From Cystobacter ferrugineus (GTDB lineage: Bacteria; Myxococcota; Myxococcia; Myxococcales; Myxococcaceae): a stretch of DNA of 64,000 nt. The stretch's first letter is position 1. Every line of letters begins with the position of its first letter. Positions 1,406-50,970 of the stretch are shown piece after piece. The notes below the pieces were generated by a model. The model was not told the DNA's origin and searched no databases. It saw only the letters and a program-made list of their open reading frames with translations. The position numbers and the translations under genes were made by a program. The DNA lies in NCBI RefSeq assembly GCF_001887355.1, contig NZ_MPIN01000002.1, positions 434,001 to 498,000 on the forward strand. The letters are read 5' to 3'.

Positions 1406-2530
1406 ATGTTCCGCTCGTCTTCCCGGACCCTGGCCCTCGTGGTGCTGGCCGCGCTCCTCGCCTGTGCCGCGGCCTCGGGCGCGGGCGCCTGGCGCTTCCA
1501 TCACAAGAACCCCCAGGCCCCCGTGGTGGGGCTCGACGAGTACGTGGTGATGGGGTGGGTGGGGTGGGACGCGAGCTGGTACGCGCGGATCGCCGAGAAG
1601 GGCTATGACTACCGTCCCGGCGAGCAGAGCTCGGTGGCCTTCTTCCCGCTCTATCCCCTGGCCATCCGCGCCGTGACGGCGCTCGGCGCCAACGTGTACC
1701 AGGCCGGAGTGCTCGTCAGCCTGCTGTGTGGCCCGCTCGCGGTGCTGCTCTTCCTGCGCTGGGCGCGCCGGCTCGTGGGCGACACCGCCGCGCTCCATGC
1801 CGCGCTGCTGCTCGCCCTCTACCCCTTCACCTTCTTCCTCTACGGCGTGATGTACTCCGACGCGCTCTTCCTCCTGCTGGTGGTGGGCGCGTTCCTCGCG
1901 TTGGAGAAGGGGCACCTGGTGCTGGCGGTGGCCCTGGGGGCGCTCGCCACGGCGGCCCGGCCGGTTGCACCCGCGGTGGTGGTGGGGCTGCTCGTGCGCC
2001 GCTGGGAGTGGAAGCGCGCGCGGGGCGAGCGCTGGAGCGTCGTGGATCTGCTGCCCGTCCTGTCCGCGCTCGGCTTCGGCTTCTACGTGCTCTACCTGGA
2101 GCGCCACTTCGGCGCGCCGTTCGCCTTCGTCGATGCCCAGGCGGGCTGGGGACAGATGCCCGGCTGGGAGGCGTGGTTGAAGCTTCCCTGGTTCAAGGCC
2201 GTGTTCCACGAGGGCAACGCCGAGGTGAAACTCCGGCTCCTCGTGCACGCGCTGTTGACGGGCGTGGCGCTCGCGCTCGTGATTCCCACCTTCCGGCGGC
2301 TGGGCTGGGGCTATGGCGCGTTCTGCGCCGTCATCGTGGGGATTCCCTTCGTGGCGACCAAGGACTTCATGGGCATGGGACGCTACCTCCTGTCCGCCTT
2401 TCCGCTCTTCGTCACCCTCGCGCTGCTCCTGGGAGACCATCCGCGCGTGCGTCAGGGCCTGTGGGCCCTGGGCGCGGTGTCTCTCGTCGTCCTCTCCGCC
2501 GCCTTTGCCCTGGACCACTACGTCTCGTGA
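1406..2530 (+). CDS. GT-C membrane glycosyltransferase, PIG-V mannosyltransferase-like
   Basis: The 374-residue protein has a signal anchor followed by many hydrophobic helices. It carries a WDASWY..IAEKGY segment just after the first helix, which is the acidic loop motif of the PIG-V-like bacterial mannosyltransferases that use polyprenyl-phosphate sugars as donors. Another family-like stretch is FFPLYPL, followed by an aromatic-rich helix (LYPFTFFLYG). It probably transfers a sugar to a lipid or glycan on the outer face of the inner membrane. The ATG at 1406 is chosen because it places the hydrophobic helix at the N-terminus; upstream open frame has no family features, and no clear ribosome site is visible. 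It overlaps the following methyltransferase by four bases (GTGA), so the two are probably co-translated. Confidence 0.75.
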   Translation: MFRSSSRTLALVVLAALLACAAASGAGAWRFHHKNPQAPVVGLDEYVVMGWVGWDASWYARIAEKGYDYRPGEQSSVAFFPLYPLAIRAVTALGANVYQAGVLVSLLCGPLAVLLFLRWARRLVGDTAALHAALLLALYPFTFFLYGVMYSDALFLLLVVGAFLALEKGHLVLAVALGALATAARPVAPAVVVGLLVRRWEWKRARGERWSVVDLLPVLSALGFGFYVLYLERHFGAPFAFVDAQAGWGQMPGWEAWLKLPWFKAVFHEGNAEVKLRLLVHALLTGVALALVIPTFRRLGWGYGAFCAVIVGIPFVATKDFMGMGRYLLSAFPLFVTLALLLGDHPRVRQGLWALGAVSLVVLSAAFALDHYVS

Positions 2531-3195
2531 ACGCCCCTCTCACTCCCACCCTGTCCCTCTTCTCCCACCTGCCCCCCGGCGAGCGCTTCCACGTGCACGC
2601 CCGCGCCTTCTCGGCTCCGCTGGAGGCCGTGGCCGCCCGGGTTCCCCCCGGAGGCCGCGTGGCCGAGGTGGGTTGCGGTCATGGCCTGCTCTCCGGGTTG
2701 CTCGCCCTGGGCGATTCCCGGCGCCACGTGCATGGGGTCGATCCCGACCCACGTAAAATCACCTGGGCGCGCAAGGGCCCGGGGACGCTGCCGAACGTGG
2801 TGTTCGAGGTGGGAGGCGTGGAGTCGCTGGCCGCTACCCAGGCGGGCGGGTTCGACACGGTGGTGGTGTGTGACGTGCTGTACCTGCTGCCCCTGGAGCG
2901 CTGGCCGGGCTTCCTTCGCGACGCGTCGCGGCTGCTGCGCCCGGGGGGGCGGCTGCTGGTGAAGGAGGCCGAGGGCGATGGCTCCTGGAAGCACCGCAAG
3001 TGCCTCGCGCAGGAGTGGGTGATGGTGAAGTGGCTCGGCCGGACGAAGGCGGGCGGTGCGCTGGTGCTCCAGCCGCGGCACGCGATGGAGGCGCTGCTGC
3101 GCGACGCGGGCTTCCACCTGCGCGAGACGGTGGAGCTGGGCGCGGGCTACTCCACGCCCCACATCCTCTACGTGGCGGAGGCCAGGGCGCCGTAG
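2527..3195 (+). CDS. Class I SAM-dependent methyltransferase
   Basis: The 222-residue protein has a Rossmann methyltransferase core: motif I VAEVGCGHG near residue 46, the acidic ribose-binding HGVDPD, VVVCDVLYLLP as motif IV, and LLRPGGRLLVKE as post-motif. It resembles the UbiE/COQ5-like Methyltransf_11/25 group. The GTG start at 2527 overlaps the stop of the membrane glycosyltransferase (GTGA), which argues for translational coupling and a shared substrate, perhaps a lipid or a sugar. The C-terminal 28 bases overlap the 3' end of the convergent deacetylase gene. The methyl acceptor is unknown. Confidence 0.75.
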   Translation: MNAPLTPTLSLFSHLPPGERFHVHARAFSAPLEAVAARVPPGGRVAEVGCGHGLLSGLLALGDSRRHVHGVDPDPRKITWARKGPGTLPNVVFEVGGVESLAATQAGGFDTVVVCDVLYLLPLERWPGFLRDASRLLRPGGRLLVKEAEGDGSWKHRKCLAQEWVMVKWLGRTKAGGALVLQPRHAMEALLRDAGFHLRETVELGAGYSTPHILYVAEARAP

Positions 3196-4016
3196 GTGGT
3201 CAGCTCCACCCCGGCGAGTTGGAGCCGGGCGCGCACGCGGGGGCTGGTGAGCGCGTCCAGCTCGGACTGCCAGCCATAGGTCCACATCGGATCCTCCGGC
3301 ACATGGGGGCGGCCCTCGCCCGGGTGGCAGCCCAGCTCGAAGTCCCCGGGGGGCAGGGCGTCGAGCAGCGACAGGAGGGCGGCCTCGTCGAGCTGGCCCG
3401 CCTCGAAGACACCGCCCGCGCTCACCCGCCGCACGCCCGAGGGAGGCCTGGGCGCGCTCCGGGCCAGCAGCGTGAGCAGCGACGTCTTCACCGCGGCCCC
3501 GGGGGCCCGTCTCCAGGTGAGGCGGGGCAGCCGGTCCGGCCAGCGCAGGGGCAGGCCCTCACGCCGCGCCAGCTCCTCCACGACGGGCCGCACGCCGGGC
3601 AGCAGGTGCAGGTGCTGGTGCATGTCGAGGTGATCCACCTCGGCGCCCAGCTCCCGGGCCCGTGCGAGCTGCGCGGCCAGCTCGAGCTCCAGCTCCTCGC
3701 GGCGCACCCGTCCGGTGAGCCACGCGCGCGTGAAGTCCGCCCAGCCCGCGCGCAGATGGCCTCCGGGCGCGAGCGTGGGGACGCGTGCGGGAGGCGAGGC
3801 GGGGGCGAGCCGGGTGCACACGGCGAGGTGGACACCCAGGGCCAGTCCCTGGGCACGGGCCCGGCGCACCGCCTCGGGGGCACTTTGGCCCATGACGAGC
3901 ACGGTGGCGCTGGTGACGATGCCCTCGCGGTGGGCGCGCAGGATGCCGGTGTCCAGCGACGGGTGCAGCCCGAGGTCGTCCGCGTTGACGACGAGGCGTG
4001 TGGGCGCGTGTTTCAC
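3168..4016 (-). CDS. YdjC/ChbG/HpnK family carbohydrate N-deacetylase
   Basis: The 282-residue protein opens with the family signature LVVNADDLGLH (metal-binding Asp pair) and has VDHLDMHQHLHLLPGV in the middle (metal-binding histidines), plus the late FELGCHPGEG strand. This family removes N-acetyl groups from sugars such as diacetylchitobiose or, in HpnK, from acetylglucosaminyl hopanoids. Six bases separate it from the upstream GT2 gene on the same strand, so they form a pair. With the facing GT-C gene this suggests deacetylation of a lipid-linked amino sugar. A hopanoid role is possible, but no hopanoid cyclase genes are visible in the window. Confidence 0.8.
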   Translation of the reverse strand: MKHAPTRLVVNADDLGLHPSLDTGILRAHREGIVTSATVLVMGQSAPEAVRRARAQGLALGVHLAVCTRLAPASPPARVPTLAPGGHLRAGWADFTRAWLTGRVRREELELELAAQLARARELGAEVDHLDMHQHLHLLPGVRPVVEELARREGLPLRWPDRLPRLTWRRAPGAAVKTSLLTLLARSAPRPPSGVRRVSAGGVFEAGQLDEAALLSLLDALPPGDFELGCHPGEGRPHVPEDPMWTYGWQSELDALTSPRVRARLQLAGVELTTYGALASAT

Positions 4017-4022
4017 CGGGGC

Positions 4023-4817
4023 CTATCCGTGGCCGCGCGCCTTCTCGCGCGCCGGGCCGTGCAGCGGGGCCACCGTGGGGGGCAGCCGTACCGGACGCGT
4101 GGCCGCCTTGGGCCAGCGCGTCTCCGGGTACAGTCGCGCCAGCTCGCGCACCATCTTCAGGATGACCGTGGGCGAGGACAGCGTGGAGATGCCGCGCGTG
4201 CGGGGGAAATAATCCACTCCCATCTGGAATACCCGGAACCCTTGATGGATTGCCTTCACCACCAGCTCCGCGTCGATGAAGGAGCCCAAACTGTTGAGCT
4301 CCACCGACTCCAGGACCTTGCGATGCATCACCTTGAAGCTGAAGTTGATGTCCTTCACATGGACACCGAAGAGCGAGCGGATGAGCAGGTTGTAGGCGAA
4401 CGAATAGACGATGCGCTTGGGGCCCTCGCTCGTGCGATCGAAGCGGAAGGCGCAGATCATGTCCGCCTCGAGGTACGTCATCAGGTGCAGCGCCCGCTCC
4501 AGCTCGTTGAGATCGAAGGGCAGGTCGATGTCCGAGTACACCACGATGTCCTTGGTGGACGCGGACAGGCCGGTGCGCATGGCGCCGCCGAGCTTGAGAT
4601 TGACCGGGTGCGTGATGAAGCGGAACTGGGGGATGCGCGCGGCGAGCCGCTCGCAAATCTCCTGGGTCCGGTCCGTGGACGCGTCGTTGACGACGATGAT
4701 TTCGAAATCATCGGTCAGCCGCGGAAGGACCTCCAGGGCGCGCATGACCGAGCGCTCGACGTAATCCTCCTCGTTCCAGGCGGGAAAGAAGAGGCTGATG
4801 CTGGGAGAAGGAGCCAC
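4023..4817 (-). CDS. Family 2 glycosyltransferase, polyprenyl-phosphate sugar synthase type
   Basis: The 264-residue GT2 protein begins with the nucleotide-binding strand ISLFFPAWNEEDYV, has IIVVNDASTDRT, and a DXD-like metal site VYSDIDLPFD. The central region GVHVKDINFSFKVM and the D-A-E stretch SFIDAELVVKA are typical of Dpm1/ArnC/GtrB-like enzymes that load a sugar onto undecaprenyl phosphate. There are no C-terminal membrane helices, unlike ArnC and GtrB, so it resembles soluble Dpm1. It is the first gene of the two-gene unit with the deacetylase. The tail (about 35 residues) is Arg/Pro-rich and poorly conserved-looking. Confidence 0.8.
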   Translation of the reverse strand: MAPSPSISLFFPAWNEEDYVERSVMRALEVLPRLTDDFEIIVVNDASTDRTQEICERLAARIPQFRFITHPVNLKLGGAMRTGLSASTKDIVVYSDIDLPFDLNELERALHLMTYLEADMICAFRFDRTSEGPKRIVYSFAYNLLIRSLFGVHVKDINFSFKVMHRKVLESVELNSLGSFIDAELVVKAIHQGFRVFQMGVDYFPRTRGISTLSSPTVILKMVRELARLYPETRWPKAATRPVRLPPTVAPLHGPAREKARGHG

Positions 4818-4965
4818 GATGGAAGACCTCGGAGGTGCACCCCGGTGACCGGGTGGCGGGGGAGGCGGCTGCTATCAAACATCCCCGGCCCTGTGCAATC
4901 CAACGGTCGCGGAGTGACTGACGGACGTGCTAGCGTCACGGCTTTGGTTGGTTTCGAGGGGTGAT

Positions 4966-5910
4966 GTGGGAGACAGGCGCCTCATTCTGTTGGTGGACGA
5001 ACAGCCCGCTCGGCAGGCACAACTCGCGGGTGCGCTGGAGCAGGACGGTTTCTCCATCCGGTTGGTCTCCGCTGGCGCGGAGGCCCAACGCCTCATCGAC
5101 GAGGCCCGTCTGGTGCTGCTCGTGCTCGGGCCGGCCGGTGGGCCCGCGCGCGCTCTCCTGCAGCACCTGATGGCCCGGGATGACGACGGGCATCGTCCGT
5201 CCCTCATCGCGCTCATCCCCGCCGAGGAGCGCGCGGCCGTGGTGGCCGTGCTGCGCCTGGGCGCCGAGGTGGTGCGCACGCCCGTGGATCCCGAGGAGCT
5301 GTCGGTCCGGGTGGAGCGCTGTCTCCAGGAGCGGCAGCGGATGGAAGCGCTGCTCACGCGCGTGAACGCGCTCGAGCGCCTGTCCATCACCGACGGGCTC
5401 ACCCAGGTGCACAACCACCGCTACTTCCAGGACCGGCTGCGCGAGGAGTTCCGGCGCGCCCAGCGCTACGACGATCCGCTCTCGCTCATCCTCATCGACC
5501 TGGATCACTTCAAGCGCTTCAACGACGACCATGGCCACCAGGTGGGCGACGTCGTGCTGCGCGACGTGGCGGCCTCGCTCCAGCGCAACGTGCGCGAGAC
5601 GGATCTGCTGGCGCGCTATGGCGGCGAGGAGTTCGCCATCCTCCTGCCGCGCACGCCGCTGGCGGGCGCGCTCACCGTGGCCGAGCGCGTCTGGCGTGAG
5701 CTGGGCGTGCTGCACACCGGTCCGGAGCGCACCCTGCGTGTCACCGCCTCCGTGGGGGTGGCTTCCTTCCCCCACCACGCCGTGGGCAACGCCGAGCAGC
5801 TCGTGCGCTCCGCCGACGAGTCCCTCTACCGCGCCAAACACGAGGGCCGTAACCGCATCTGCGTCCACTCGGCCCTCGCGTCCTCCCCCGAGCGGCCCGC
5901 CTCTCCCTGA
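4966..5910 (+). CDS. Diguanylate cyclase with a degenerate receiver domain
   Basis: The 314-residue protein has an N-terminal receiver-like fold (residues 5-120) and a C-terminal GGDEF domain (about 138-300). The cyclase half looks active: DGLTQVHN, IDLDHFKRFND, the signature GGEEF at 219-223, and an inhibitory-site RETD at 210-213, five residues ahead of it, so product feedback by cyclic di-GMP is expected. The receiver lacks the phospho-acceptor Asp (Val about position 53) and the conserved Lys (Thr105 before PVD), so it probably does not take up phosphate. The GTG at 4966 is preferred because GAGGGG lies four bases upstream; an in-frame GTG at 4927 is an alternative. Confidence 0.88.
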   Translation: MGDRRLILLVDEQPARQAQLAGALEQDGFSIRLVSAGAEAQRLIDEARLVLLVLGPAGGPARALLQHLMARDDDGHRPSLIALIPAEERAAVVAVLRLGAEVVRTPVDPEELSVRVERCLQERQRMEALLTRVNALERLSITDGLTQVHNHRYFQDRLREEFRRAQRYDDPLSLILIDLDHFKRFNDDHGHQVGDVVLRDVAASLQRNVRETDLLARYGGEEFAILLPRTPLAGALTVAERVWRELGVLHTGPERTLRVTASVGVASFPHHAVGNAEQLVRSADESLYRAKHEGRNRICVHSALASSPERPASP

Positions 5911-5928
5911 GCTCCCTGGCCTCCGGCT

Positions 5929-6023
5929 GGGTCAAAAGGGGTGGGTCCCCATTGACCCGATTCAAGAGTCGGGGTATCATTATACCCAGGGTGGTCAGGA
6001 GCCCCGGGTGTTGAAGCACCCGG
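5929..6023. promoter_or_regulatory. Cluster of three inverted repeats ahead of the sensor kinase
   Basis: Three perfect dyads lie in the gap between the diguanylate cyclase and the kinase gene: GGGTCAA (5929-5935) with TTGACCC (5952-5958); GGGTAT (5972-5977), a CATT loop and ATACCC (5982-5987); and CCGGGTG (6004-6010), a six-base loop and CACCCGG (6017-6023). None is followed by a T run, so a simple terminator is doubtful. They may be binding sites or processed RNA structure in the leader of the two-component operon. Confidence 0.45.
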
Positions 6024-6131
6024 TATCAGGGCGTTTTGCGAGATAATGGATGTTGGCAGCGTCATTGCAAACGCTCGGGGTTCGGATTCGGGACGAGGTT
6101 GCCACTGGAACTGGCGCAGACACAGGGAGCG

Positions 6132-7678
6132 GTGCCACGCGGTCGGTTGTTGCTGGTGGACGACGAGGAGTACATCCTGAAGTCCATCCGGCGTGTCCTC
6201 CGGCGCGGTGACTGGCAGATCGAGACGGCGTCGGACGCGGAAGAGGGGCTCAAGGCCCTCGAGCGCTTCACGCCCGAAGTGGTCATTTCTGACTTCCGCA
6301 TGCCGGGCATGAATGGCGTGGAGTTCCTCAGCCGCGTGAAGGCGCAGGTTCCCCGCGCCCAGCGCATCATGCTCACCGGGCAGGCGGATCAACAGGCCAT
6401 CGAGGAGGCCATCAACCGTTCGGAGATCTTCCGCTTCATCTCCAAGCCGTGGAACGACAGCCATCTGGTGCTCACGGTCAAGAGCGCCTTCGAGCAGTAC
6501 GCGCTGCAGGCGGAGAACGAGCGGCTGTTGCGCGTGACGCAGCAGCAGAACGAGGAGCTGCGGCGGCTCAACGCGGAGCTGGAGACGCGCGTGACGCTGC
6601 GCACGCACCTGCTCAGCCAGGCCAAGCGCGAGTGGGAGCTGGCGTTCGACTCCATGGACACGCCGCTCGCGGTGGTGCGCGCGGACTACGGGGTGCGCCG
6701 CGCCAACCGCGCCTACACGGAGCTGGCGGGCGATCGGCTCAAGGAGCCGCTGAGCGAGGAGGGCTCCGAGCAGCTTTGCCACAAGCTGCTGTTCGATCGC
6801 GACACGCCCTGCCCGGGCTGTCCCCTGCACGAGGCGCTGGAGACCAACCGCGGCACGCGCGCGGAGATCCGTCCCCGCGGCCGCATCTACGCCATGGCCG
6901 CCTACCCGCTCACGGGCGAGGGGCGCGCGGTGTGTTCCTACCGGGACATCACCGACGAGCGCGAGATGACGCGCCGGTTCATCGAGACGGAGAAGATGGC
7001 GGCGGTGGGGCAGCTCGCCGGCGGCGTGGCGCACGAAATCAACAATCCGCTGGGCGGCATCCTCGCCTTCGCGCAGTTGATGAAGCGCGACGACGGCCGC
7101 AGCAAGGAGGACCTCGAGTCGCTGGGCCTCATCGAGGAGAGCGCGCTGCGCTGCAAGCGCATCGTGGAGAGCCTCTTGAAGTTCAGCCGGCACAGCCGCA
7201 CGGATGATCGGCGCACCTTCCAGCTCAACAAGTGCGCGGAGGACTCGGCGGTGCTCTTCGGGGCCCAGCTCAAGTCCTACCCGAAGGTGCGGCTGGACTT
7301 GCGCCTGGAGCCGCAGCTCCCCGAGCTGTTCGGAGACCCGGGACAACTGTCGCAGGTGATGCTCAACCTCCTGCAGAACGGCCTGCACGCGCTTCCGTCC
7401 ACGGGCGGCATGCTGACGCTGGAGACGGGCAGGGAAGAGGACCGTTGCTTCTTCCGCGTCGCCGACACGGGCTGTGGCATCGAGGAGCGCTACCTCGCGC
7501 GCATCTTCGAGCCGTCCTTCACCACGAAACCACCGGGTCAGGGAACGGGCCTGGGCTTGTCGATCGCCTACCGTATCGTCGAGGACCACGGCGGCGTCTT
7601 CAAGGTGGACACCCAGATGGGTGAGGGGTCTCGCTTCACCGTCTACATCCCCATTCCCCTGCAGCTCGAGAGGTCGCC

Positions 7679-7682
<4 letters not shown>
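6132..7682 (+). CDS. Receiver-PAS-histidine kinase
   Basis: The 516-residue cytoplasmic kinase has no membrane segment. Domains in order: receiver (3-122, acceptor Asp54 in VISDFRMPGMNG, Lys in SKPW), a coiled coil (about 125-165), a PAS-like domain (168-275) with an unusual Cys216...CPGC (227-230) pattern, HisKA with His301 in VAHEINNPLGG, and HATPase (N box NLLQNGLHAL, G1 DTGCGI, G2 GTGLGLS). The GTG at 6132 is chosen because it starts just before the receiver; TTG codons upstream are possible, and the ribosome site (AGGGAG) is close. Its last four bases overlap the NtrC-type regulator, which is the likely partner. The receiver at its N-terminus suggests that it is itself an intermediate in a relay. 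Confidence 0.88.
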
Positions 7683-9151
<1,469 letters not shown>

Positions 9152-49425: not shown

Positions 49426-50970
49426 CTATTTCAGCAGGAGGACCTCGTAGGGACCCGCCGTGAGCCGCTCATGGGGCTGACCCTCCCGGCGCAACCTGAC
49501 TTCCCAGGGTCCGGGAACGAGGTAGCGGGAGCCGGGGACGATCGCGGAGAAGAGGAGGGCCCGCCGCCGGGCCGACGCGAACCGGCGCGGGTAGGGGGGA
49601 TACCGATTGACGCCAGTGCCGGGCGCCACGGTCACCTGCTCCTTCCAGAGGTAGGTGAGCCGATAGGCGACCCAATAGTCGGCGACGGCGGCCTCCACGC
49701 CCTGCTGCTGGAGCGCGCTCAACAGCGTCCGGGCGTCATCGCCGTTGCCCTCGGGCGTGATTCGCGGCAGTCCGTGGTCGACCCATCCGCCATAGCCCCG
49801 CCAGCCCGCCACGCCGAAGTGCGCGATCACGGGCAGCAGCAGGACGGACACCCACACCGTCCCCTGGATCCGCGGGAGCCGGGCGAGCACGGGTGACACC
49901 AGCAGTGGAAATCCCAGCAACAGGGGCACGAGGTAGCGCGCGCTCATCACATCCTGCGGACGGCGAGTGAAGAGAAACCCCACGAGGGTGACTCCCACCC
50001 AGGCCGCGCCACACCAGGCGAGCCGGCGTGCGCTCCATTCCGTCCCGGGGGCGAGGCTCAGGAGCCCTCCCGCCACCGCCATTCCGACGAAGAGCCCCAT
50101 GCCCACCACGGCCAGCACGAGCCAGGCTCCCTCCAGCACCTGCTCCGGCCGATCGAAGCCCGTGGTCGTGGCGAACAGCTTGGTGCCGGTGACGTAGGGC
50201 AGGCACTTGCTCCAGAAGAGCGGCCAGTTGTGCTTCAGGTTCGACCAGGACAGCTCGCTGAGCTGGGGGGCCTCCATCCTGGCGAGCCAGCGCGGGATGC
50301 TCCCGAGTCCGAAGCCCACGAGCGTCCCACCCAGGGCGAGCCACCGGGACGCGCGCGGCTCCCACACCCACCCCAGCAGGTAGAGCACCACCCCGGGCAG
50401 CAACTGCAGGACGAAGAGATCCGTGTAGTAGCCCAGCCCCACGGCGGCCCCCGCCAGCACCGCGAGCAGCAGCCGGCGGGCGGGAGCGCCGGCGCGAGCG
50501 GAGCGCTCGGCGAGGTACAGCCCGGCGAAGAGCAGGGTGAAGGCCCAGATGCGGAAGGCGCTGTAGGAGAGGAAGTTGAGCGGCTCGGGGCAGACCGCGA
50601 CGCAGGCCGCGGCGAGCGCCGCCCACATGGAGGGCAACCGCTGCCGCAGCACGCCATACAGGCAGAGCACCAGCAGCGCATGTCCCAGCACCGACGACAC
50701 GGCGAGCGAGGCGCGCAGGGGCAGCAGGAGCTCCACCAGCCGAGCCATCACGGGCGCGGTCACGCCCTGGTAGGTCGTGCCCCAGAGCAGCAGGGGACTC
50801 GGCCCTTCACCCAGGTGCCATGACTGCAACCCCACCACGGCGATGTCCGAGTCGAGCGCGCCGAAGTTGAGGAACGCCGGGAGGCGGAACAGGAACGTGA
50901 GCAGCACCAGCAGCACGCCCCACACGAGCCCCCGTCTGGTTCCAGGCGGGGCGCTGTCCACGGAGGTCAT
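49426..50970 (-). CDS. GT-C family membrane glycosyltransferase (last gene of glycan operon)
   Basis: The 514-residue protein has about 11 membrane helices and a soluble C-terminal part (about 400-514). An acidic pair follows the first helix (FGALDSDIAVVGLQSW), the usual catalytic loop of GT-C transferases using polyprenyl-phosphate sugars. TRRPQDVMSARYLVPLL is the conserved late helix with Arg-Tyr. It resembles ArnT/Dpm-dependent transferases. Its ATG overlaps the stop of the upstream gene by four bases (ATGA). Donor and acceptor are unknown. Confidence 0.75.
   Translation of the reverse strand: MTSVDSAPPGTRRGLVWGVLLVLLTFLFRLPAFLNFGALDSDIAVVGLQSWHLGEGPSPLLLWGTTYQGVTAPVMARLVELLLPLRASLAVSSVLGHALLVLCLYGVLRQRLPSMWAALAAACVAVCPEPLNFLSYSAFRIWAFTLLFAGLYLAERSARAGAPARRLLLAVLAGAAVGLGYYTDLFVLQLLPGVVLYLLGWVWEPRASRWLALGGTLVGFGLGSIPRWLARMEAPQLSELSWSNLKHNWPLFWSKCLPYVTGTKLFATTTGFDRPEQVLEGAWLVLAVVGMGLFVGMAVAGGLLSLAPGTEWSARRLAWCGAAWVGVTLVGFLFTRRPQDVMSARYLVPLLLGFPLLVSPVLARLPRIQGTVWVSVLLLPVIAHFGVAGWRGYGGWVDHGLPRITPEGNGDDARTLLSALQQQGVEAAVADYWVAYRLTYLWKEQVTVAPGTGVNRYPPYPRRFASARRRALLFSAIVPGSRYLVPGPWEVRLRREGQPHERLTAGPYEVLLLK

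Follow-up and report, generated by a model that had tools for sequence, protein, structure and literature searches.

Four Genes in Two Facing Pairs

The window analyzed here is a 64,000-nucleotide (nt) stretch of the Cystobacter ferrugineus genome (contig NZ_MPIN01000002.1; G000:C2:434001-498000 in our numbering of this 12.05-Mb, 42-contig assembly). Near its start lie four genes in two facing pairs: a GT-C-class membrane glycosyltransferase (GT-C) with an S-adenosylmethionine (SAM)-dependent methyltransferase (MT), and a YdjC-family deacetylase (YdjC) with a GT2 glycosyltransferase (Table 1). We describe the conservation of this set and its probable role in decorating the cell envelope with an amino sugar.

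A first-pass annotation had assigned the genes to these four families, and Pfam bears the assignments out: GT-C matches PIG-V at 43.2 bits (cut-off 22.4), and MT, YdjC, and GT2 match their families at 60.7, 189.7, and 96.2 bits, respectively. The 28-base convergent overlap that it reported is also present. The GTG start of MT overlaps the GT-C stop codon as GTGA, and YdjC and GT2 are separated by 6 nt. Third-codon-position G+C is 0.89–0.93 in all four genes, and their conservation is far beyond chance; the genes are real. A simple hydropathy scan found no hydrophobic segment in YdjC, MT, or GT2 and ten partly overlapping segments in GT-C, so the first three are expected to be cytoplasmic and GT-C to reside in the membrane.

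Table 1. Positions of the four genes and their overlap within the window
Feature	Assignment	Position	Strand	Remarks
GT-C	PIG-V/PMT-like GT-C glycosyltransferase	1406..2530	+	ATG start; 374 amino acids; PF04188
MT	Class I SAM-dependent methyltransferase	2527..3195	+	GTG start; alternative GTG at 2593; PF13489
YdjC	YdjC-family N-deacetylase (NaxD/HpnK/ChbG superfamily)	3168..4016	-	PF04794
GT2	DPMS/ArnC-like polyprenyl-phosphate sugar synthase group	4023..4817	-	PF00535; upstream of YdjC
MT/YdjC overlap	Convergent 3'-end overlap	3168..3195	.	28 nt

Families, Motifs, and Predicted Structures

By sequence, GT2 falls among the polyprenyl-phosphate sugar synthases; its gene is paired with that of a deacetylase, and its activity is predicted on that basis. 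Its NCBIfam matches all fall below their cut-offs (PgfS, 51 bits; dolichyl-phosphate hexose transferase, 48.7; PpgS, 43.7; ArnC, 36.1), and HpnB reaches just 21.6 bits. Solved relatives in the PDB include DPMS (5mlz, E 1.7e-10), ArnC (9bhc, E 6.1e-5), and sll0501, among others. The motifs D96-x-D98 and RTRG-x-STL (206–213) are invariant across 19 aligned orthologues. In a tree of 44 rows, the GT2s of the window's family form one clade (100/100); because several distant rows carry long branches, we claim no origin for it.

The genome search returned no other member of the YdjC family. HpnK is its best NCBIfam model (141.2 bits; cut-off 232.6), and ChbG reaches 114.8 bits (cut-off 227). Across 20 aligned orthologues, N11-A-D-D14, H63, D131, H133, H135, H137, and H231 are invariant; we take these to be active-site-type residues. 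PDB matches comprise a chitooligosaccharide deacetylase, EF_3048, and 8jqe, together with TTHB029 when a profile is used.

GT-C scores 24.8 bits against PMT_2, whose cut-off is 26.1 (28.2 in the genome-wide search), and its D55-x-x-W58-Y59 motif is invariant across 22 aligned orthologues. Its sequence has no match in the PDB and none to the curated ArnT model of NCBIfam at E ≤ 0.01. The AlphaFold model (predicted local distance difference test score, pLDDT, 82.0; predicted template modeling score, pTM, 0.86) retrieves Pmt4 (E 7.0e-4) and undecaprenyl phosphate-bound ArnT (E 8.7e-4) in Foldseek. VIA-align superposes it on Pmt4 (9i5l; Z 19.7, root-mean-square deviation 4.2, 311 residues) and on ArnT (5f15; Z 18.2, root-mean-square deviation 5.2, 312 residues); oligosaccharyltransferases and ALG enzymes reach similar Z. 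The predicted structure has the ArnT/Pmt4 fold, and the idea that the transferase comes from a family unrelated to ArnT is not upheld; the fold is clear but leaves the substrate undecided. The genome holds 12 PMT_2-type matches, 11 of them above cut-off, with the window GT-C included. Elsewhere in the window, a long open frame at 50317-50715 (minus strand) matches PMT_2 weakly, its 22.4 bits being under the cut-off.

MT is modeled with the common class I fold (pLDDT 92.6). The nearest solved folds are AtmM/RebM (the entry 6uv6 is named a D-glucose O-methyltransferase), and the nearest by profile are phosphoethanolamine N-methyltransferases. Fold does not settle the substrate, as class I folds resemble one another too closely.

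Conservation within the Class

To describe co-occurrence, each of 145 genomes of the class was searched with all four window proteins. GT2 was counted at E ≤ 1e-25, YdjC at 49% identity or more, and GT-C at 45% identity or more; weaker GT-C and YdjC matches (30–46% identity) were left out, and with them included matches at E ≤ 1e-10 reach 98/145 genomes for GT-C and 105/145 for YdjC. GT2 is present in 86 of the 145 genomes, all in one family (f1), of which nine genomes of 2.1–7.0 Mb do not carry it. YdjC occurs in 87 genomes, including every one with GT2, and lies ≤300 bp from GT2 in 86/86 (a few of these distances use one piece of the match, where an assembly or gene is broken).

The first-pass annotation had proposed looking for co-occurrence of the four families among myxobacterial relatives, and it is found: besides the constant YdjC, 81 of the 86 GT2 genomes have MT and 84 have a relative of GT-C, the two exceptions for GT-C being G100 and G023, where a match of 37% was seen. 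The distance between MT and YdjC is at most 6.5 kb in 73/81 genomes; in the other 8, the two genes fall on separate contigs. MT and GT-C are within 300 bp in 61 of the 80 genomes holding both, with spacings of 499 bp in G122 and 656 bp in G113. Identity to the window proteins spans 71–98% for GT2, 49–95% for YdjC, 49–93% for MT, and 45–95% for GT-C (best per genome); among named organisms, Archangium has the closest GT2s (90% identity for A. violaceum). At G113:C1:12121905-12124114, the GT-C and YdjC matches are fragmented and MT is partial, resembling frame breaks; these may be pseudogenes or sequencing errors.

Related Gene Sets outside the Family

A scan of named genomes with a GT2 profile returned 79 loci, 49 belonging to the window family by their GT2 and 30 lying outside it; an initial YdjC-only scan of named genomes returned no loci. 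Gene content was assessed with six-frame hidden Markov model searches, including an MT-subfamily profile built from 18 MTs of the family. Window-family loci hold YdjC in 48/49 (L168 ends inside GT2), MT in 36, and the window-type GT-C in 25. The full 7 kb downstream is present in two of the 13 loci where MT is missed (L140 and L164) and in 11 of the 24 where GT-C is missed, the rest of the latter ending at contig ends. One record titled Comamonas sp. KCTC 72670 (L145) holds a Myxococcus-type locus with 79% GT2 identity and is probably misnamed or contaminated.

The 30 outside loci are labeled Vicinamibacteria/Acidobacteria, Verrucomicrobia, Desulfobacteraceae, Deltaproteobacteria, Omnitrophota, plain "bacterium," and others; many are closely related to each other, so the independent cases are fewer than 30. 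L184, labeled Deltaproteobacteria, was filed under Myxococcota by the tree tool. YdjC lies within about 3 kb of GT2 in 26/30 (all but L173, L197, L202, and L176, the last lying at a contig end). A GT-C encoded on the same strand no more than 5 kb away passes the PMT_2 cut-off in 19/30, and that of L174 falls just short of it (25.5 bits; cut-off 26.1). The MT subfamily is found in nine (L174, L176, L181, L186, L194, L196, L198, L199, and L200), scoring 82–166 bits with the profile; the two other proteins there passing E ≤ 1e-4 reach only 19–20. The related MTs beside GT2/YdjC outside the family share a C-terminal GY..PH-like stretch.

All four genes come together in one Vicinamibacteria and one Desulfobacteraceae metagenome-assembled genome. 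Gene order varies: L186 reads GT2-YdjC-GT-C-MT, with 4-nt overlaps along GT2/YdjC/GT-C, L181 reads GT2-MT-YdjC-GT-C, and L178 reads GT-C-GT2-YdjC. MT thus sits between GT2 and YdjC in L181, as it does in L174, and after GT-C in L186. The GT2-YdjC-GT-C and GT2-MT-YdjC-GT-C runs outside the family independently support an Arn-like division of labor.

Membrane proteins near GT2 in the outside loci were compared with Pfam, except for those of L199 and L202 and an opposite-strand one in L173. Those of other types than PMT_2 match YfhO in L194 (below cut-off), DUF2079 in L196 (with a carbohydrate-binding module match below cut-off), DUF2079 in L197 and L200, and Competence in L198; L171 and L176 have no membrane-protein candidate near GT2. 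The Omnitrophota locus L198 is ordered GT2-MT-radical SAM-YdjC-radical SAM, a layout shared by L194 and L199. HpnJ is the best match of both L198 radical SAM proteins (136 and 162 bits; cut-off 577.6), and the arrangement suggests a rearranged-sugar variant of the pathway. L189, also Omnitrophota, reads GT2-YdjC-GT-C.

Locus Architecture and Its History

Gene order was compared across 20 fetched loci of the family, which contain YdjC and GT2 in all 20, MT in 18, and GT-C in 11. The usual order is fadI-fadJ / GT-C / MT / [gene of 725–833 amino acids] / YdjC / GT2 / GGDEF / histidine kinase / NtrC-type regulator. The presumed fadJ neighbor, named by eye and by its position in Myxococcus xanthus, is present in 18/20. 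In the window, a GGDEF gene, a hybrid histidine kinase, and an NtrC-type regulator (HsfBA-like) occupy 4927-9151, and such genes stand beside GT2 in most fetched loci. The 725–833-amino-acid gene (family c9) intervenes between MT and YdjC in 8/20 loci, including L087:3742-6243 and L088:7191-9485; by eye, the L087 copy has a lipoprotein-like start and a D/G-rich stretch.

GT-C varies in position. Outside the locus, it lies downstream of a helicase-like gene (named by eye) in eight fetched stretches, with one gene between them in L121. In a tree of 31 GT-Cs, the in-locus copies form one clade (100/99), except that of L090 (G092), which groups with unlinked ones. We infer a later arrival of GT-C in the locus and a loss of the intervening gene that brought MT and YdjC together; the convergent overlap would then be a late by-product. 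The first-pass annotation had taken this overlap as a sign that the two pairs traveled together. We reject it as evidence of linkage: an overlap (22–52 nt) is present in only 12 of the 36 loci holding both genes, the 725–833-amino-acid gene is interposed in 8 of the 20 fetched loci, and GT-C is elsewhere in several genera. Travel of all four genes as a block within the family is likewise unsupported, as the flanks are kept in most of the 20 loci while GT-C comes and goes.

The named M. xanthus record (L138) carries the same four genes. In the available passages of the respective sources, hsfA and hsfB fall within mxan_5362-5365 (PMC9109919), a strain table lists a deletion of MXAN5366, 321 amino acids (PMC4877007), which we take to be the GGDEF gene, and FadJ and FadI are given as MXAN5371 and MXAN5372 (PMC4048283). 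By these positions, the four genes should therefore be MXAN_5367 to MXAN_5370. Among the matches listed in open-licence literature, we found no mention of MXAN_5367, MXAN_5368, or MXAN_5370.

Proposed Pathway and Competing Explanations

We consider it fairly probable that the cassette builds a hexosamine, de-N-acetylated and probably methylated, on a polyprenyl-phosphate carrier and transfers it to an acceptor in the envelope, in a variant of the NaxD-type pathway. On the cytoplasmic face, GT2 would load an N-acetylhexosamine (HexNAc) from a nucleotide sugar onto undecaprenyl phosphate, as its family and motifs suggest. YdjC, also cytoplasmic, would remove the N-acetyl group to leave a cationic amino sugar on the carrier, a step to which its family, invariant residues, and constant pairing with GT2 point. 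Before flipping, MT would methylate the sugar on its lipid carrier (the acceptor is a less likely target), a role suggested by its genetic linkage inside and outside the family. A flippase would then turn the carrier-linked sugar over, and GT-C would pass it in the periplasm to lipid A, core, O-chain, or another glycan or protein acceptor. We infer the substrates, the order of the steps, and their direction from the observed genes, families, conserved residues, co-occurrence, and outside gene runs, and from the predicted fold. Methylation is at once the most novel step of the pathway and the one of which we are least sure.

Several observations weigh against this pathway. MT is missing from 5/86 GT2 genomes (G002, G006, G020, G100, and G130), with GT-C directly abutting YdjC in G002 and G006, and from 21/30 outside loci, some of them at contig ends. 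Two genomes have GT-C without GT2: G142, which is incomplete, and G032, in which a stop codon interrupts the match. GT-C is unlinked to MT in several genera, on different contigs in 16/80 genomes and 228 kb away in G136. In some loci of Omnitrophota, PMT_2 is lacking, and radical SAM proteins or membrane proteins of the DUF2079 or Competence type are present. The window proteins reach no curated NCBIfam cut-off of ArnC, PpgS, HpnK, or ChbG, and no flippase gene was identified, no search having been aimed at flippase families. Because the genome holds 12 PMT_2-type matches, another GT-C could also be the partner.

The most serious competing explanation, which we regard as unlikely, is that GT2 and YdjC work alone: GT2 would put HexNAc directly on a phospholipid or other lipid, YdjC would deacetylate it, and GT-C and MT would have other jobs. 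GT2-YdjC is indeed the only invariant pair (86/86), HpnK gives the best NCBIfam score of YdjC (141 bits), and precedents are described in GpgS/GpgD (GpgSDF) of Pseudomonas (PMC12713373) and HpnI/HpnK of hopanoid makers (PMC12583986), as far as the available passages go. However, a PMT_2 GT-C accompanies GT2-YdjC in 19/30 outside loci, GT2 resembles polyprenyl-phosphate synthases and gives just 21.6 bits with HpnB, and none of the GT2-bearing genomes has HpnH.

A related explanation, which we rank lower still, accepts that GT2, MT, and YdjC make a carrier-linked sugar and assigns its transfer to a different GT-C, the PIG-V-like neighbor being independent and having moved beside MT. The scattered positions of GT-C in several genera, including the eight fetched loci where it follows the helicase-like gene, fit such a history, as do the 12 PMT_2-type genome matches and the retention of GT-C without GT2 in G032. 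Set against them are the single clade of in-locus GT-Cs (barring L090), the GTGA overlap with MT, which fits a joint function, and the GT-C relatives in 84/86 GT2 genomes. It is very improbable that YdjC is a ChbG-like chitooligosaccharide deacetylase for chitin or amino-sugar catabolism in an accidental neighborhood: the ChbG model gives 114.8 bits and one relative of solved structure bears the name chitooligosaccharide deacetylase, but the score is under the ChbG cut-off of 227, and the YdjC-GT2 pairing is constant inside the family and frequent outside it.

Relation to Known Systems and Significance

The cassette pathway follows a logic that is already familiar. FlmK is an ArnT-like transferase, and ArnD is a NodB-type deacetylase. 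The window set resembles ArnC/ArnD/ArnT in the order of its steps, in the predicted fold of its GT-C, and in a distantly ArnC-like GT2; it differs in that its deacetylase is YdjC and not NodB-type, its GT2 scores 36.1 bits against the ArnC model PRK10714 with a cut-off of 529, and the ArnT model is unmatched. The Arn-like scheme of loading, deacylation, and transfer put forward in the first-pass annotation therefore stands in its division of labor, supported by co-occurrence and by the outside gene runs, and not in membership of the curated ArnC or ArnT families.

A closer parallel is the FlmF2/NaxD/FlmK set. In the available passages, NaxD is a YdjC-superfamily protein that deacetylates undecaprenyl-phosphate N-acetylgalactosamine (GalNAc), letting galactosamine reach lipid A (PMC11279074), flmF2 and flmK, both glycosyltransferase genes, are linked with galactosamine on lipid A (PMC4688374), and FlmF2 is described as ArnC-like (PMC8149597). 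Compared by description, both sets have a YdjC-superfamily deacetylase, predicted in the window set to act on carrier-linked HexNAc as NaxD does; the window GT-C is PIG-V-like by Pfam, and the window set adds a methyltransferase. NaxD-type features in the window set include a YdjC-superfamily deacetylase with conserved residues, its paired GT2, and the ArnT-fold GT-C. Replacement of ArnD by YdjC is thus no novelty, being anticipated by NaxD of Francisella and Acinetobacter (PMC11279074).

Other systems share parts of the scheme. According to the passages available, lgmA-C are needed for glucosamine on Bordetella lipid A phosphates (PMC4993483); LgmA-D likewise put an amino sugar on lipid A, and the window set differs in its methyltransferase, none appearing in the Lgm set as described there. 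PpgS is reported to put GalNAc on polyprenyl phosphate, from which, once deacetylated, Rv3779 passes it to arabinogalactan (PMC9671496); the window GT2 scores 43.7 bits with the PpgS model, far under its cut-off of 370, and the window set includes a candidate deacetylase, YdjC, for a step to which the PpgS route has no enzyme assigned. Three-component systems of polyprenyl-phosphate donor, flippase, and GT-C are described as common (PMC11127046). As load-deacetylate-transfer logic is already known, the present set adds a methyltransferase to it, together with recurrence in loci beyond the family. No description of the cassette was found among the matches listed in open-licence literature, where mentions inside papers are possible.

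Amino sugars on lipid A or cell-wall glycans alter surface charge and can alter sensitivity to cationic peptides and phages. If the cassette pathway is correct, it names the enzymes of such a step, encoded beside the HsfBA motility regulators, in most members of one family of fruiting-body myxobacteria, the model species M. xanthus among them, and it suggests that load-deacetylate-transfer logic with exchangeable transferases recurs in several phyla. We tentatively raise a broader possibility: a widespread and previously undescribed four-enzyme module of GT2, YdjC, the GY..PH-tailed MT subfamily, and an exchangeable GT-C might put a methylated amino sugar from undecaprenyl phosphate on the envelope in Myxococcota, Acidobacteriota, and Desulfobacteraceae, with a radical-SAM variant in some Omnitrophota. 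The methyl group would set the product of such a module apart from the Arn, NaxD, and Lgm sugars.

Hopanoid synthesis also couples a glycosyltransferase with a deacetylase, HpnI and HpnK being described in the available passages as acting in turn (PMC12583986). The window set shares this pairing with HpnI/HpnK/HpnJ and differs in that its YdjC is under the HpnK cut-off. HpnH occurs in 16/145 genomes at E ≤ 1e-30, all outside f1, and none of them shares GT2; the hopanoid pathway therefore does not explain the 86 GT2 genomes, and a hopanoid glucosamine role is disfavored. The window genome has a squalene-hopene-cyclase-like gene at G000:C5:672642-673622 (L213; 199 bits) and no HpnH match; the gene is possibly a sterol or other triterpene cyclase. 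In G123, about 7 kb separate HpnH from a YdjC homologue (41%), which may be a genuine HpnK.

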